Of a stretch of DNA of 51,843 nt, positions 24,376 to 32,532 are shown piece after piece; positions within the stretch are counted from its first letter, which is position 1, and each line of letters begins with the position of its first letter. The notes under the pieces were generated by a model. The model was not told the DNA's origin and searched no databases. It saw only the letters and a list, made by a program, of their open reading frames with translations. The position numbers were made by a program, and so were the translations under genes. Where the stretch lies: the NCBI GenBank assembly GCA_026989395.1, contig JALSJK010000136.1, positions 1-51,843 on the forward strand. Reading direction: 5' to 3'. The DNA comes from Methylomonas sp. (GTDB taxonomy: Bacteria > Pseudomonadota > Gammaproteobacteria > Methylococcales > Methylomonadaceae).

Positions 24376-24517
24376 GTCGCAAAAGTGGAGGATGGTGTGA
24401 ATATAAGATTTTTCGAGGCCCAGGCTCGGGCATATTAAATTCAGATTCTGTTAATCTAATGGATCTACAATTGCTTGCTTCACTCGAAAAATCGGGTGTA
24501 TTTAATTGGTAAAAATT

Positions 24518-26872
24518 ATGGCAAATGCATTCGCCGATATTAATCAATCCCTGTTCCATGTTACTGATCCTCTCAGGACGTTTATTAGTTCAGATAACAG
24601 CGAAAGTCTTGAAACCTTAATCGCGGGTATTAGAGAAAGAAAAAAATTTTTTCTGGTAACCGGACAACAAGGCTCTGGGAAAACAACGTTTATACAGCGG
24701 GCGGTTTGTGAGTTAGGATCAAAGACCAGGTTAATCAATCTTCATCGAGGTGCTCTTGATTTTCAGGAGTTGGTCGACTTCATTGGTCATGATCTCGATT
24801 CGAGTTTTTCTTTAGATGCTCCATTAAAAGATAAATTAAGTAGGCTGGGCAAATTGCTCGAAATGTGGTCATTACAACATTTAGTGATTGTAATTGATCA
24901 ATCGCTTAATATTCAGCAGCAATTGCTGGAAAATTTAATCAAGCTCAGTAATACAGAAATTTCTGATCAATGTTGCCCGCATTTGATTTTTGTGGGCTTG
25001 CCGAAATTTGAGGAAAAGTTACTGGCTGCTGGCTTACCTGCAGAAGTACTTGAAGGTGCTCTCTCATTGCAGATTGAACCACTTTCTGAAGACGAAGTAG
25101 TTGCCTACATTAATTTTCATTTGCAAAACCTTAAAAACCAAGGAAGGCATTTATTTTCTGATGATGCAATTAAAAGAATCGTTCATTACTCGAAAGGGTT
25201 GCCGAGGTTAATTAATCGTCTTTGTAGTTTGGCATTATTAACGGCGAAACTGGAAGAAAAATCGACAGTTAAGCCTGAAATGATCGAAGAAATTTTGCAG
25301 AACAGTTTGCTTTTGGGGAAAGAATGTGGCTATGTTGCCAATAAACCTATTGAGATTGGTGAGTCTGAGGCATTAGTTGAGCAGGAACTTCTGGCTGAAT
25401 CTAAATTAATTGCGCCAAAACCGGAAGTTAAGGGAAAAGAACCAGTTTCAGAAACTGATAGATATATTAAATTTTCCGATGCAATGGGAAAGGAAGTGTC
25501 TGATGAAGAAAAGGATGGATCACCAGAGGAAAATGATTTTGCCAGTGACAACAAAAAAATACCAAATGAGCCTATTAAGGAACTTGAAACAGTTTCTGAA
25601 GAGGCTAAGCGGAATATCTCAATTTTTTCTAACCAGACATCGACTTTTATAACTGCATTCATTATGGGCATGATTTTTTCAGCATTAATTGGGGCAGTTT
25701 TGTATTTTATGCAACAAACCAGTGAGGTGATGCCAGAAAATAAAATAGAAATTGCCAAAGCTGAACAAAATCAAAATTATGAAAAAATAAAACAGAAAAA
25801 AATAGCGGCACTTTTGGAGCGTTCTGAGCAGCAATTTGCAAAACAACAATTGATGACGCCTGGGCATGACAACGCATGGGAAAGTTATCGAAAAGTTCTT
25901 GATTTGGAGCCAGGTCATCCAAAAGCATTGGCAGGTATTGAAAAAATCAAGGACACTTTAGTGCTTTGGGCTAAGCAAGAGATTAAGCAAGAAAACTATC
26001 AACAGGCCGCTTATCATTATCGTAAGGCATTAGAGGCGTCTCCTAATGACCAAGGTATTGTTGAAGCATTGCGTGATATTGATAAAAAGGAATTATCAAA
26101 GAAAACCGTGGAGGTACCTGTTGTTAAAATAGCAGTTACCGATAATGAAAAGTATCAAATTGAACAATTACTAAAAAAGGCCGACCGGCAGTTGTCAGAA
26201 AAAAAATTAATGACGCCGGATGAAGACAGTGCTTGGTCCTCTTATAAAAAAATTCTGGCACTTGATCCCGAGCATCTACCGGCAAGAGAAGGTATAGAGA
26301 AAATTAAAGAGACCTATAAACTCTGGGCCAGGAATGAAATAAAAAAAGGGAATTTTAATCATGCCGCTTTTCTTTTGAGAAAGGCTTTGCAAATATCCCC
26401 GGATGATTCAGATATCCAAGAAATTGTGGCGAAAATTGAGGCTGGCAGTTCTACTACCGCATCTAGCTCGGTTCAACAAATTCATCGTGCGAATCGTAAA
26501 AATGCCCTGTCGCGAAGGGATTTTTATGAGCTGCTAAAGGATCCTTATGGGGTGGATGAGTTATTGGCTTTTGCTAAACAGCAAATTGCTAGAAAAAGAT
26601 TAACCAAGCCGGAAAGCGATAGTGCTTTTACTATTTATAAAATAATCCTCGAGCGTTATCCAACTCATCAGAAAGCCCTGGCGGGAATTAAGAAAATTAA
26701 AGATACTTATTTGCTTTGGGCGAGACACGAAATGAAAAAAGGAAATATAGATAAGGCCGAATTATTATACAGTAAGGCACTGGAGGTAGCGCCAGGCGAC
26801 CTAAATATAATGTCAACCTTAAAAAACCAATTCAAGAAGTCAAAGCCAACCTCTCCACCTCCGCGTAATTAA
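24518..26872 (+). CDS. ExeA/GspA-like AAA ATPase with three C-terminal tetratricopeptide-like repeats
   Basis: A protein of about 784 aa. The N-terminal AAA domain is of the ExeA/GspA type (Walker A GQQGSGKTT near residue 49; a sensor-like LIFVGLPKFEEKL; KGLPRLINRLCSLALL). A long acidic linker follows, one membrane segment at about 375-397, and three tandem units of about 95 residues (roughly 430-525, 545-642 and 668-778). Each unit contains a TP.xDxAxxxYxxIL core, a GIxKIKxTxxLWA helix and an AxxxYxKALExSP helix. It probably spans the inner membrane with the repeats in the periplasm. In the ExeA family the ATPase helps insert the secretin through peptidoglycan; the partner here is unknown. 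The ATG at 24518 is chosen over the TTG at 24506. Confidence 0.8.
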   Translation: MANAFADINQSLFHVTDPLRTFISSDNSESLETLIAGIRERKKFFLVTGQQGSGKTTFIQRAVCELGSKTRLINLHRGALDFQELVDFIGHDLDSSFSLDAPLKDKLSRLGKLLEMWSLQHLVIVIDQSLNIQQQLLENLIKLSNTEISDQCCPHLIFVGLPKFEEKLLAAGLPAEVLEGALSLQIEPLSEDEVVAYINFHLQNLKNQGRHLFSDDAIKRIVHYSKGLPRLINRLCSLALLTAKLEEKSTVKPEMIEEILQNSLLLGKECGYVANKPIEIGESEALVEQELLAESKLIAPKPEVKGKEPVSETDRYIKFSDAMGKEVSDEEKDGSPEENDFASDNKKIPNEPIKELETVSEEAKRNISIFSNQTSTFITAFIMGMIFSALIGAVLYFMQQTSEVMPENKIEIAKAEQNQNYEKIKQKKIAALLERSEQQFAKQQLMTPGHDNAWESYRKVLDLEPGHPKALAGIEKIKDTLVLWAKQEIKQENYQQAAYHYRKALEASPNDQGIVEALRDIDKKELSKKTVEVPVVKIAVTDNEKYQIEQLLKKADRQLSEKKLMTPDEDSAWSSYKKILALDPEHLPAREGIEKIKETYKLWARNEIKKGNFNHAAFLLRKALQISPDDSDIQEIVAKIEAGSSTTASSSVQQIHRANRKNALSRRDFYELLKDPYGVDELLAFAKQQIARKRLTKPESDSAFTIYKIILERYPTHQKALAGIKKIKDTYLLWARHEMKKGNIDKAELLYSKALEVAPGDLNIMSTLKNQFKKSKPTSPPPRN

Positions 26873-27404: not shown

Positions 27405-27812
27405 TCAACATATTTTATAAAGTCCGTCTAACACCAAAGAATTGGGGCTTACCATTCCAATTATTGTTTCACCTTCCATGACTGGTGCTCTAACCAGGTT
27501 ATATGTTGCAAAAAGCCGAGAACAATATCGAATGTCCATTTCTGGTCGAACAGAAATCACCGGCACAGTCATGATTTCATATACATTAACACGCTCCGGA
27601 GCTCTATTTTTTGCTAAAACGTGACGAGCAATATCTGCGGAAGTGATTAGCCCAAATTCGTCATCTTCATGGCGTTTATTAACAATTAGCACAGAGGTTC
27701 TGGCTGTTTTCATGGTTTTTAGCGCTTCACCAATGGTGGCAATGCCGTCAACAGTTGTGAATTCGGGTTTCATGACATCACGAACCCGAATAATCTTTGG
27801 TTTAACGTTCAT
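27405..27812 (-). CDS. Two-CBS-domain regulatory protein
   Basis: A 135-aa protein made of a tandem CBS pair (first ending in TSVLIVNKRHEDDEFGLITSADIARHVL, second with MTVPVISVRPEMDIRYCSRLFATYNLVRAPVMEG and ending IGMVSPNSLVLDGL). CBS pairs bind adenine nucleotides or related ligands and gate partner proteins. It overlaps the PII-like gene by 4 bases (ATGA), so the two are translationally coupled. It is the last gene of the DUF1538 operon. Confidence 0.85.
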   Translation of the reverse strand: MNVKPKIIRVRDVMKPEFTTVDGIATIGEALKTMKTARTSVLIVNKRHEDDEFGLITSADIARHVLAKNRAPERVNVYEIMTVPVISVRPEMDIRYCSRLFATYNLVRAPVMEGETIIGMVSPNSLVLDGLYKIC

Positions 27813-28159
27813 ACATCATCCTCATATTCCTGTGCTAGCTCATTAACTTGATGCATGACGCCTATAGCATCTTCAACATCAATTTGTAAGGCAATGCCAG
27901 TGCCGGGTTTAGTGTCAAATTCGGCGGTTTTGGCTATTTCCTCCAAGATATGCCGGCTAAGATGTTCTTCGACCAGAAAAAGCAATACATCTCGTTGGTT
28001 TTCTAGTGTTAGTCCGAAAAAAGTTTTGGGTTGTTTCAGGCCTTCTCCGCGAGCATTATTAATAACTGTGGCGCCTTTCGCGCCATATTTTCGTGCCGTG
28101 TCAAGCACGAGGTCGGTTTTGTTGTCTTCGACAAATGCGATAATTAATTTAAAGTGCAT
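27809..28159 (-). CDS. PII-like signalling protein
   Basis: A 116-aa protein with the PII (GlnB) fold pattern. The first strand is FKLIIAFVEDNKTDLVLDTARKYGAKGATV, a shortened T-loop-like region follows (NARGEGLKQPKTFFGL), then a second strand-helix and the C-terminal DTKPGTGIALQIDVEDAIGV corresponding to the GDGKIFV segment of GlnB. The uridylylated Tyr of classical GlnB is absent and the T-loop differs, so it belongs with the PII-like proteins that control transporters rather than nitrogen-sensing GlnB. It is 16 bases downstream of a DUF1538 gene and coupled to the CBS gene. Confidence 0.75.
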   Translation of the reverse strand: MHFKLIIAFVEDNKTDLVLDTARKYGAKGATVINNARGEGLKQPKTFFGLTLENQRDVLLFLVEEHLSRHILEEIAKTAEFDTKPGTGIALQIDVEDAIGVMHQVNELAQEYEDDV

Positions 28160-28175
28160 AATAATATTCTCAAAA

Positions 28176-28946
28176 TTAAGTCAGGCTTCCCTTATTACGC
28201 CATTCAGCAATTTGAGCGTAACTCAAAACTGCGATGATTGGAAATAAACTGGCAAAAGCAATCAAGCCAAAGCCATCAAGTAATGGGTTTCGACCAGGGA
28301 CAGTTGAGGCCAGCTCTAGTCCTAGTGCGGTAACAAGCGGTACTGTGACGGTTGAAGTGGTCACGCCCCCTGAGTCATAGGCGAGACCAATAATGAGTTT
28401 TGGCGCAAAGATGGTTTGGATGATTACTATGATGTAACCTGCAACAATATACAAATACAGTTCTGTTCCCGTAATGATACGAAATGTTCCCAGTGCGATA
28501 CCAAATGCAACGCCAATGGAGACGGCTATTCTAAGACTAAAGGCATGAATTGCTCCTCCAGAAAGTTGTTCGGCTTTGATAGCGACAGCAATCAATGAGG
28601 GTTCTGCCAGTGTGGTGGCAAAACCAAGGCTTGCGGCAAATGCGTAAACCCAATAATAAGATAGCCAGCTGACTTTAGTTGCCTGAGAGTCAATGTTAAT
28701 GAATTCTGGGGTCGTCAGTTGGTGAGCCATTAATTCTCCCAAAGGGAATAACGCCATTTGCAGCCCTTGAAGAAACAGGGCGATACCTACGACAACATAG
28801 AGAAAGCCAAATAAGGTTTTTCCTGGATGTAAAATTGGTTTACGTATGATTACAATTTGAAAACCGATAATAATAGCGGCAATCGGTAAGACATCCCTTC
28901 CAGTGTCTAATAAAGTTTTGGAAAAAATAACTAGCCAATCAATCAT
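28176..28946 (-). CDS. DUF1538 membrane protein (second half-transporter)
   Basis: A 256-aa polytopic protein of DUF1538 with about seven hydrophobic segments. The signature is a loop [21 protein letters not shown] followed by [21 protein letters not shown]. An earlier [14 protein letters not shown] segment recurs in the neighbour. It shares this architecture with the gene upstream and overlaps it by 4 bases. DUF1538 proteins also occur, as I recall, as one chain of about 500 aa, so the two genes likely form one unit. They look like transporters, but the substrate is not known. Confidence 0.85.
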
Positions 28947-29677
28947 AATATGATGCCGTAGGCCATGACAAAAATCATCGGTGTAAGAGATGCAAACGCG
29001 ATTAAGCCAAATCCATCAGTCATTGGATTGCGGCCTTTAATGGCAGTTGCCAAGCCTACGCCTAGCGCCGTTACCAGAGGTACGGTAATGGTAGAAGTTG
29101 TTACCCCGCCAGAATCATAAGCAATACCGATAATTTCATCTGGCGCAAACGGGGTAATAACAACCACAATCGCATAACCGCTAATAATTAAATAATGCAG
29201 TGGCCAGCCATGCAGGATGCGTAATACGCCAATTACTATAGCGATGCCAACGGAAAATGCAACGGTGATGCGCAAACCAAATGCATAATTTGACTTGGCC
29301 GCATCGGAGTCATTAATGATATTTCCCAGGCTGGCAATTTCGGCAGCTTCATTGGTAACTGCTATTAAAGCAGGCTCGGCAATGGTAGTGCCAAATCCAA
29401 GGCAGAAAGCAAAGGCCAGCAGCCAAAATAAGCTGCCTTTTTGAGCAAATGCATAAGCCATGGATTCGCCAATTGGAAATAAACTAAGTTCCAGGCCGAT
29501 AATGAAAAATGTTAGACCCAATATTACTAATAGAGTGCCTGTAATCAAGTTAATAATGTCGGGCAACGGTTGTTCTATGACAAAAATCTGAAAAAATAAA
29601 ATAACAGTAAAAATCGGGACAAGATCGATGAAGCTTTCGAAAATTTGCTTAATGAATCGATTCTTAAGAAAGGTCAT
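28943..29677 (-). CDS. DUF1538 membrane protein (first half-transporter)
   Basis: A 244-aa polytopic DUF1538 protein, the first gene of a minus-strand operon. It carries [21 protein letters not shown] and the same [21 protein letters not shown] loop as its neighbour, then [20 protein letters not shown]. Six to seven hydrophobic helices are visible. The repeated AEP and DSGGVTTST motifs suggest duplicated half-transporters with a shared translocation site. It is divergent from the NdvB-like gene, with a 224-base promoter region between. Confidence 0.85.
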
Positions 29678-29901: not shown

Positions 29902-32532
29902 ATGAAAAAATCTTTTGTTTTTATTATTACGCTGGTTTTGCTGGTTTTAGCCAATTTAGTATTTTGGGCTTATCTCAATCAGCCGCAAAATGCCCGGGAG
30001 TGGGACGGTGTGATGATGGGATTATCCTTCAACCCTATGCGTAGGCATCATGATCCATTCAAAAAACATTATCCTAACCAATGGGAAATTGAAGAAGATA
30101 TAGCACTTCTAGAAAATAAAGTGCATGCAATCCGGACATATAGTGTTAACAACGGTTTTGATAAAATACCAGAGTTGGCGCAAAAACATCATATTAATGT
30201 GACGCTTGGCGCTTGGATAGACAAGGATGCCGCTTCCAATCAACGAGAAGTGGATAGATTGATTGAGTTAAGTCGGCAAAACAGCCCAAATATTATCAGA
30301 ACCATGGTTGGAAACGAAGCGGTGCTCAGAAAAGATGTATCTGTCAGCGAGTTGATATATTTGATCCGACAGGTGAAAAGTCAAACATGGAGACCTGTTA
30401 GTACTTCAGAAACATGGGATATTTGGCTTAAATATCCTGAGCTTGGTGAGGAAGTCGACTTCATTGCTGCACATATTCTACCGTATTGGGAAGGAATTCC
30501 TGCAGATGAGGCTGTTGAGTATGTTTTTCAGCGTTATTATGACTTGCAGAAAGCATTTCCTGACAAGCAAATTATTATTACCGAAGTGGGCTGGCCATCC
30601 AATGGACAGCCAATAAAACAGGCTTCTGCTTCAATTATCAATCAGGCTCGGTTTCTTAGAGATTTTCTAAATCGTGCGCATGCCGAAAATATCGTCTACT
30701 ATGCTGTTGAGGCATTTGATCAGCCATGGAAGATGACCAGTGAAGGTTCATCTGGTGCCTATTGGGGTTTGTATGATGCTGAGCGCAAGCCAAAGTTTTC
30801 CATGCAAGGTGCTGTGCAAAAACTGCCAAAATGGCGTTATTGGGCAGTTGGTGCAGTTTCACTTAGCTTGCTTGTTACTTTCCTGTTTTTATTTAACAGA
30901 AAGCGCCTGAAATTACCTGGCGTGGTGTTTTTTGGCTTGATAGCCAATCTTGGCGCGTCAACCTTAGCTTGGACTGCATCCATTGGCGCGCATCAGTATC
31001 AAACAACCTTTACTGCTTTTTTGTGGATTATTTTATTATTGATGCAAGCGCTTGCAGTCTTGGTCTTGTTGGTAGAAAGCCTGGAATTGGTTGAGGTGTT
31101 ATGGAACCGGAATAGCACACGTAATTTCAAACCTTTAAAAGTCAGTCCGGATTTTGTTTTTCCAAAAGTATCTTTACACATTCCAATTCATAATGAGCCG
31201 CCAGAGATGGTCCGTCAGACACTGGAAGCGATTGACCGGCTTGATTATCCCAATCTTGAAGTGTTGGTAATCGACAATAACACCACTGATCCCGCTGTTT
31301 GGAAACCAGTTCGAGATGATTGTGCGCGCCTGGGTTCAAAGTTCCGTTTCTTTCATTTGGAAAATTGGCCAGGCTATAAGGCAGGAGCATTAAATTATGC
31401 GCTTGAGCAGACAGCAGAAGATGCTGAAGTCATTGCTGTTATTGATAGTGATTATATTGTCTCGCCGGACTGGTTAAAAAGCTTAGTGCCTTATTTTGAT
31501 AATCCTGAAGTTGGTTTTGTACAAGCCCCTCAAAATTACCATGATTGGAAGCAACATTGGTTTAAAACCTTAACGAACTGGGAATATGCTGGTTTTTTCA
31601 ATATCGGTATGGTGCAGAGGAACGAATATAACGCCATCATTCAACATGGCACCATGACCATGATTCGTAAAACGGCCCTTGAAGCTGTTGGAAAATGGGG
31701 AGAATGGTGTATTTGTGAGGATAGTGAGTTGGGAATTCGGCTTTACCGTGCCGGATATGATTCAGTTTATGTCAAAGATACCTTTGGCCGTGGCGTAACG
31801 CCATATACTTTTTCTGGTTACATCACGCAGCGGCATCGCTGGGTATATGGAGCCATGCAAATTATCAAGGCGCATTGGCGCAGTTTGCTTTCTTTTGGGA
31901 AAACTGACTTGACGCCTGCGCAGCGTTATTATTTTGTGGCAGGTTGGCTGCCGTGGTTTTCTGATGCGCTGGCATTAATTTTTACAGTCGCCAGTTTAAT
32001 TTTATCAGCGAGAATTTTTATTGATCCAGTTGCGGGTGAGTTGCCCATCGCAGCGTTTGTATTGCCCACTATAGGCCTGTTTGGCTTTAAATTAATTCGG
32101 AGTTTGTGGTTATATCGGGTGAGGGTTAAATGTACTTTACTCCAAACACTTGGCGCCACATTAGCCGGGTTGGCTTTAACCCATACTGTTGCCATAGCAA
32201 CACTACAAGGTTTGTTTACTTCAGGCCGTCCTTTTTTACGAACTCCAAAGTGCGAAAAAGAACGCCCTTTTTTTGCTGGCCTGATGACCATTCGTCAAGA
32301 ACTGGTATTTCTGGTTTTGCTCTGGACGGCGGCTTATTTTATGAGTACCTTGGAACACTTTGATAATATGACTGGTAAGCTATGGACAGCTGTCCTTTTA
32401 GTGCAGTCAGTTCCATATTTTGCATCCCTGCTGGTATTGCTGATCAATATTGGCCCAAATGTTAAAGAGCTTTCAGATGGTGTTGCAAAGACAAAGAAAA
32501 CTACGGGTGTTTCTTCTGGAACGGCGATTTGA
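29902..32532 (+). CDS. NdvB-like GH17-GT2 beta-glucan synthase
   Basis: An 876-aa fusion. After an N-terminal signal anchor, residues about 30-305 form a GH17-type glucanosyl domain with the usual two acids, Glu139 in GNEAVL and Glu228 in ITEVGWPSNG. Two or three membrane helices follow (about 312-395), then a family-2 glycosyltransferase domain with DSD at 515-517, the ED pair in CEDSELG (606-607) and QRHRW (643-647). More helices close the protein. This order matches NdvB-type enzymes that make cyclic or linear beta-1,3/1,6-glucans exported to the periplasm. It is monocistronic by appearance. Confidence 0.9.
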   Translation: MKKSFVFIITLVLLVLANLVFWAYLNQPQNAREWDGVMMGLSFNPMRRHHDPFKKHYPNQWEIEEDIALLENKVHAIRTYSVNNGFDKIPELAQKHHINVTLGAWIDKDAASNQREVDRLIELSRQNSPNIIRTMVGNEAVLRKDVSVSELIYLIRQVKSQTWRPVSTSETWDIWLKYPELGEEVDFIAAHILPYWEGIPADEAVEYVFQRYYDLQKAFPDKQIIITEVGWPSNGQPIKQASASIINQARFLRDFLNRAHAENIVYYAVEAFDQPWKMTSEGSSGAYWGLYDAERKPKFSMQGAVQKLPKWRYWAVGAVSLSLLVTFLFLFNRKRLKLPGVVFFGLIANLGASTLAWTASIGAHQYQTTFTAFLWIILLLMQALAVLVLLVESLELVEVLWNRNSTRNFKPLKVSPDFVFPKVSLHIPIHNEPPEMVRQTLEAIDRLDYPNLEVLVIDNNTTDPAVWKPVRDDCARLGSKFRFFHLENWPGYKAGALNYALEQTAEDAEVIAVIDSDYIVSPDWLKSLVPYFDNPEVGFVQAPQNYHDWKQHWFKTLTNWEYAGFFNIGMVQRNEYNAIIQHGTMTMIRKTALEAVGKWGEWCICEDSELGIRLYRAGYDSVYVKDTFGRGVTPYTFSGYITQRHRWVYGAMQIIKAHWRSLLSFGKTDLTPAQRYYFVAGWLPWFSDALALIFTVASLILSARIFIDPVAGELPIAAFVLPTIGLFGFKLIRSLWLYRVRVKCTLLQTLGATLAGLALTHTVAIATLQGLFTSGRPFLRTPKCEKERPFFAGLMTIRQELVFLVLLWTAAYFMSTLEHFDNMTGKLWTAVLLVQSVPYFASLLVLLINIGPNVKELSDGVAKTKKTTGVSSGTAI

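Follow-up and report, generated by a model that had tools for sequence, protein, structure and literature searches.

What would two small proteins of putative sensory type control when their genes share an operon with a pair of DUF1538 membrane proteins? This question is raised by four genes in the window, that is, the whole stretch of 51,843 nucleotides of Methylomonas sp. that was analysed, which belongs to a genome of 3.27 Mb, 98% complete and in 182 contigs. The contigs with named hosts that come closest to the first of the membrane proteins are from Methylococcaceae, for example a Methylomonas MAG with 91% identity. The first-pass annotation had described four minus-strand genes separated by 4-base overlaps or a 16-base gap, and this structure was found again at the positions of Table 1. 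The overlaps are those of the umpA/umpB and PII/CBS junctions, and the gap lies between umpB and the PII gene.

Table 1. Genes of the DUF1538 operon in the window
Feature	Position	Strand	Pfam evidence
umpA-type DUF1538 membrane protein, 244 aa	29677-28943	-	PF07556 237.2 bits, 1.5e-70
umpB-type DUF1538 membrane protein, 256 aa	28946-28176	-	PF07556 219.1 bits, 5.5e-65
PII-like protein, 116 aa, short T-loop	28159-27809	-	PF00543 39.3 bits, 8.5e-10
Stand-alone tandem-CBS protein, 135 aa	27812-27405	-	PF00571 58.9 bits, two stretches

The operon is followed downstream, on the same strand, by a cold-shock gene, and upstream there is a large divergent glycosyltransferase gene (29902-32532, plus strand), whose product of 876 aa has a GH17-like part and then a family 2 glycosyltransferase. 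Elsewhere in the window (24506-26872, plus strand) a 788-aa protein carries an AAA ATPase domain and three TPR_2 stretches. At the gathering threshold Rfam reported no family at the operon, its sole match in the window being a tRNA elsewhere, and on this result the candidate of a riboswitch acting on the operon was rejected. Promoter-like sites (6) were not above chance, the shuffled sequences having 8.2 on average. For terminator-like sites the count was 6 and the shuffle mean 2.6, yet all six are on the plus strand, opposite to the operon.

Both membrane proteins belong to DUF1538, with scores (Table 1) above the curated cut-off of 22.6 bits of PF07556, and they share the 11-residue loop and the AEP motif that had been noticed on first inspection. 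The NCBIfam models separate the two in a reciprocal manner: the first scores 373 bits with UmpA and 189 with UmpB, the second 323 bits with UmpB and 209 with UmpA. These scores place the pair below the equivalog cut-offs (373 versus 490 bits for UmpA, NF041627; 323 versus 500 bits for UmpB, NF041628), and the UmpA cut-off was reached in none of the 369 gammaproteobacterial genomes sampled. The initial description of the substrate as unknown was wrong as it stood, since NCBIfam names the families UmpA and UmpB and a DUF1538 pair, UmpAB of Halomonas zhaodongensis, has been published as a two-component Na+(Li+,K+)/H+ antiporter (PMC5484666); we have replaced that reading.

In the same paper umpAB, when co-expressed, gave pH-dependent antiport and tolerance to salt and alkali in an E. 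coli without three antiporters of its own, UmpA and UmpB were reported to form a heterodimer, and homologues from Methylosarcina and Methyloglobulus are named (PMC5484666). The active Halomonas clone ended with umpB and a subclone of the two genes conferred salt tolerance (PMC5484666), and as umpAB is active without further genes, transport does not require the small proteins, as expected if these are regulators. The terms P-II, PII and CBS have no match in the main text of PMC5484666. In an independent machine-learning study DUF1538 was among the key features of pH adaptation (PMC13255231). Monovalent cation/H+ exchange is thus the probable activity of such a membrane pair, as judged from one group's assays, and by kinship to UmpAB the window pair probably acts as a Na+(Li+,K+)/H+ antiporter too.

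The AlphaFold2 model of the window UmpA (pLDDT 87.8, pTM 0.82) consists of helices only, which are interrupted at residues 99-102 (AEP motif) and at residues 193-198, in and after the DSGGVTTST loop. Ion transporters usually show broken helices at conserved charged motifs, and the breaks of the model are compatible with a cation path, although they do not prove one. No confident structural match to this fold was obtained with Foldseek (best E 0.66), and the best Z of VIA over 683 chains was 5.4, the matches pointing to no single family; this does not imply a new fold. A search of the PDB by sequence likewise returned no confident relative of UmpA, the only match of the UmpA profile having an E value of 0.28.

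The first-pass annotation had further assigned a PII-like fold to the third protein and remarked that it lacks the T-loop tyrosine of GlnB, and both statements held. Its Pfam score (Table 1) exceeds the P-II cut-off of 25 bits, and the AlphaFold2 model (pLDDT 75.7, weakest at residues 39-41) has the PII fold, matching GlnK1, CPII, TTHA0516 and SbtB in Foldseek with E values of 5e-6 to 3e-5 and a probability of 1.00; SbtB structures were found at 2.5e-05 to 6e-05 among the 50 matches listed. A PII profile run against the PDB gave 11 matches, mostly named PII proteins, all at E 0.048 or worse.

Alignment with the GlnB of the same genome confirmed that the T-loop has no tyrosine and is 5 residues shorter. 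For the tyrosine that is uridylylated and for the numbering of Lys90, Arg101 and Arg103 we assume the E. coli GlnB scheme. In the window protein these three basic residues correspond to Ile, Gly and Met, so canonical ATP binding is doubtful and the protein is not of the GlnB/GlnK type. Nor is it an SbtB, in which a C-terminal redox-sensitive R-loop carries a disulfide (PMC10991534), whereas the window protein contains no cysteine and hence no such R-loop.

Positions that are invariant across 68 sequences include A36-R37-G38-E39-G40, F47, G49, R56, R69, G86, G88 and D97. The T-loop stretch is conserved in close relatives, as would be expected of a partner-binding segment, and varies in more distant PII-like members. 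Judged by these sequence features the protein is of a distinct subgroup, characterised by a short T-loop without tyrosine and by an RGxG motif at its base. The host genome holds four other PII-family loci (contigs C26, C78 and C95), of which two are GlnB/GlnK-like (115 bits each), one is intermediate (64 bits) and one weak (25.5 bits). The diadenylate cyclase domain PF02457 was not found in this 98% complete genome, and c-di-AMP is accordingly disfavoured as a ligand in the host.

The tandem-CBS fold that had been proposed for the fourth protein was likewise upheld, by the two PF00571 stretches and by its top relative in the PDB, the CBS part of the cyanobacterial CBS-CP12 protein (5nmu, 4.7e-26, residues 5-127). 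The window protein differs from the latter in its length (135 versus 208 aa), the match ends at residue 124 of the 5nmu chain, and Pfam reported no CP12-like part in it. Binding of nucleotides, a general property of CBS pairs with examples in PMC10710835, is to be expected of the window protein by analogy.

Is the association of these four genes more than an accident of one genome? Among the first 131 loci, a set in which the genomes are not all distinct, all four genes were present in 123, every one of them scoring above 120 bits, and in the remaining 8 the locus was truncated by a contig end. Such an arrangement is far more frequent than chance would produce. Among 398 sampled genomes of Pseudomonadota, DUF1538 (PF07556) was found in 126, the PII subgroup (profile of alignment A1, E <= 1e-6) in 127 and both in 121, with a Fisher p of 2e-87 that has to be read with the non-independence of related genomes and the heavy sampling of family f47 in mind. 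The PII gene was present in 81/81 DUF1538 genomes of good quality (>= 90% complete, <= 5% contaminated), and the five DUF1538 genomes without a PII match all fall outside those limits.

Linkage was equally close. With distances counted between the listed DUF1538 matches and the best 121 PII matches (29 weaker ones being left out), the PII gene lies at 2.5 kb or less and on the same strand in 90 of the 93 genomes with listed DUF1538 matches, and it is downstream in 145/145 listed pairs within 2.5 kb. No listed DUF1538 was nearby for 28 of the 121 PII matches used, which are cases of unlisted DUF1538, contig breaks or orphans. The CBS subgroup (E <= 1e-25) occurred in 67 of the 398 genomes, in every case together with DUF1538 and PII, and 66 of its 69 matches are at most 600 bp from the PII gene.

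When 369 gammaproteobacterial genomes were sampled evenly, with the UmpA model standing for DUF1538, the counts were comparable: UmpA in 126, PII in 124 and both in 121. Five genomes had UmpA without a PII match (G592, G634, G640, G679 and G725); as three of these are good-quality genomes, namely G592, G679 and G634 (the last with a weak UmpA match, 1.7e-4), the rule admits exceptions. A profile derived from close relatives may also have overlooked divergent PII partners. Three genomes had PII without UmpA, namely G549 and G758, where PII-CBS adjoins a contig end, and G636, with a weak UmpB trace of 18 bits upstream of PII-CBS. When the 112 of the 126 genomes for which UmpA matches were listed, weaker and repeated ones being set aside, are compared with all 136 PII matches, the PII gene is found at 2.5 kb or less and on the same strand in 107, and it is downstream in 106 of the 108 pairs within 2.5 kb. 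For the other five genomes, UmpB is beside PII in G492 and G548 and PII is near a contig end in G487 and G641, which leaves G486 as the sole one unexplained.

Rare co-occurrence had been named in advance as the observation that would speak against a regulated transporter, and what we found was frequent DUF1538/PII coupling, with 121 genomes shared out of 126 and 127 in one sample and out of 126 and 124 in the other. The earlier suggestion of DUF1538 with PII and CBS partners proved real and widespread, but it has to be amended in that CBS is not universal (60/69 loci, see below) and PII nearly so. PII is a near-obligate partner of DUF1538 and CBS a lineage-dependent addition.

The architectures were compared in 69 gammaproteobacterial loci of 66 families, picked by their PII match from genomes that also have DUF1538, at about one locus per family. 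For families f187, f144 and f190 a genome with both genes was taken over one with PII only, and for G799 the copy beside DUF1538 was taken over a stronger orphan; G487, G492 and G548 were left out, their PII and UmpA matches being on different contigs. The genomes and copies skipped in this way were later inspected as a recheck. Fifty-one loci have the order pair-PII-CBS, six have fused DUF1538-PII-CBS, six fused DUF1538-PII and two pair-PII. Single cases are three DUF1538 domains with PII-CBS, PII-CBS with a fused DUF1538, fused-PII-fused and, in G486, PII-CBS without an adjoining DUF1538. DUF1538 therefore adjoins PII in 68 of the 69 loci, and CBS is present in 60. The three domains of the first single case (L212) stand in a row, one A-type and two B-type, ahead of PII-CBS. 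In L175 the order is altered, PII-CBS preceding the fused DUF1538 gene, and the cluster is kept. Some umpB genes have long stop-to-stop frames, which had been candidates for protein fusions but turned out to be overlaps.

UmpA matches were also obtained in nine plasmid records. A PII domain stands next to DUF1538 in all seven plasmid loci inspected, Clostridia included, with no CBS match in these seven, and the five clostridial plasmid loci encode one fused double-DUF1538 protein each. Linkage to PII thus persists where DUF1538 is a single fused protein, and in Clostridia. In four clostridial plasmids (L132, L134, L136 and L137) the next ORF contains two PII-like stretches, the first scoring weakly. 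In another locus (L157:3958-4678) the fused DUF1538 gene is followed by two separate PII-like genes, and at G706:C22:18740-19087 an additional copy of PII contains a single in-frame TAG.

Copies of the PII subgroup also exist away from DUF1538. Such orphans were seen beside genes with an SH3_3 domain (L140, L145 and L146), beside Dus genes (L148 and L149) and beside ETF-QO genes (L139 and L142), and a further one is present in G799 (L240).

From the above we are inclined to propose that the operon encodes an UmpAB-type two-subunit monovalent cation/proton antiporter together with cytoplasmic regulators dedicated to it. In this model the PII-like protein, which is presumably trimeric, would bind UmpAB from the cytoplasmic side by way of the short conserved segment of its T-loop and would switch transport in response to a small ligand, for which an adenine nucleotide is the likeliest candidate. 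A second, lineage-dependent nucleotide input would come from the CBS-pair protein, either through the PII-like protein or together with it, and the outcome would be an exchange of Na+, K+ and H+ tied to the energy or metabolic state of the cell. We infer the gating, the ligands and the contacts, and we regard a cation/H+ antiporter under the gating of a dedicated PII-like protein, and with CBS as second input, as a reasonably likely account of the operon. Gating by the PII-like protein is suggested by analogy, because PII proteins directly bind and control AmtB and SbtA. Several points weigh against the proposal: the window PII lacks the three basic residues named above, so that canonical ATP binding is doubtful; antiport rests on the heterologous assays of one laboratory, with the window proteins under the equivalog cut-offs; 5 of the 126 DUF1538 genomes have no PII match in each sample; and of the 28 PII matches without a listed DUF1538 nearby some are orphans.

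Known systems resemble parts of this arrangement. Halomonas UmpAB shares with the window the adjacent, overlapping DUF1538 pair and the reciprocal assignment to A-type and B-type, and differs from it in the scores already given. AmtB and SbtA are controlled by PII proteins through direct binding, and the PII-controlled transporters tabled in PMC10710835 include AmtB, Amt1, Nrt, UrtABCDE and SbtA, UmpAB not being among these. The bicarbonate transporter SbtA has a PII-like partner, SbtB (PMC10710835), whose structures the window PII model matches; the differences, besides the missing cysteine, are that no PDB entry is confidently related in sequence to the window UmpA and that the window has an extra CBS protein. 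In AmtB-GlnK a PII-type gene is linked to a membrane transporter gene as well (PMC10710835), whereas the window PII protein departs from GlnK in the T-loop features described above. PII-NG is a non-canonical PII protein whose gene lies in a cation/proton antiporter operon, that of CzcABC, but there the transporter is a metal efflux pump and the PII gene is first in the operon (PMC7726332).

The same data could be read otherwise. The pair might be a regulated transporter whose physiological substrate is not Na+/K+, the antiport in E. coli being a side activity and PII and CBS tuning another ion or a metabolite. The group that described UmpAB has, with the same complementation screen, assigned Na+/H+ antiport to several uncharacterised families (PMC6055358, PMC5996927, PMC7221264), the host is a methanotroph, a group in which DUF1538 pairs are common, and the shortfall against the equivalog cut-offs would also suit another substrate. 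Against this, the vesicle assays and the alkaline-pH phenotype (PMC5484666) favour cation/H+ exchange, as does the independent appearance of DUF1538 among pH-adaptation features (PMC13255231), and we consider a different substrate rather unlikely.

It is still less probable, in our estimate, that the membrane pair is mainly a sensor or anchor which sequesters the PII-like and CBS proteins, these controlling something else. Sequestration of GlnK by AmtB is a precedent (by a reference in PMC10710835), and the same PII subgroup does occur beside unrelated genes; on the other hand the orphans of the 398-genome sample are mostly in families f55 and f68, where DUF1538 too is present in most of the genomes listed, apart from the orphans the PII and CBS genes are closely linked to DUF1538, and transport by UmpAB is published (PMC5484666). 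An equally slight chance is given to the two small proteins being no switches but subunits with a part in structure or assembly, without which activity would be incomplete: a near-obligate PII linkage would suit an essential subunit just as well, but Halomonas umpAB alone is active in E. coli (PMC5484666), and CBS is missing from 9 of the 69 loci and unmatched in the seven plasmid ones.

How much of the gated antiporter is new? Within the open-access main texts searched, none was found that ties DUF1538 to PII or CBS, and the only match to "PII" in the DUF1538/UmpAB papers among them is inside a printed consensus sequence. The suggestion of an undescribed system consequently appears to stand for the regulatory part, within the open-access texts searched, and falls for the membrane pair, which is known as UmpA/UmpB (PMC5484666). 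What emerges is a real and widespread regulatory module, apparently undescribed in those texts, on a known transporter. We give roughly even chances to the wider generalisation of a widespread PII-gated cation/proton antiporter whose membrane half would be DUF1538/UmpAB and whose dedicated valve would be the short-T-loop PII subgroup, doubled in some lineages with a fused transporter, with CBS as a second adenylate input.

If the proposal is true, PII control would extend from the uptake of nitrogen and carbon to ion and pH homeostasis, and a target would be named for an unassigned PII subgroup. It would also explain how the metabolic state could switch a monovalent cation/H+ antiporter, and DUF1538 would gain a regulated role outside the halophiles.
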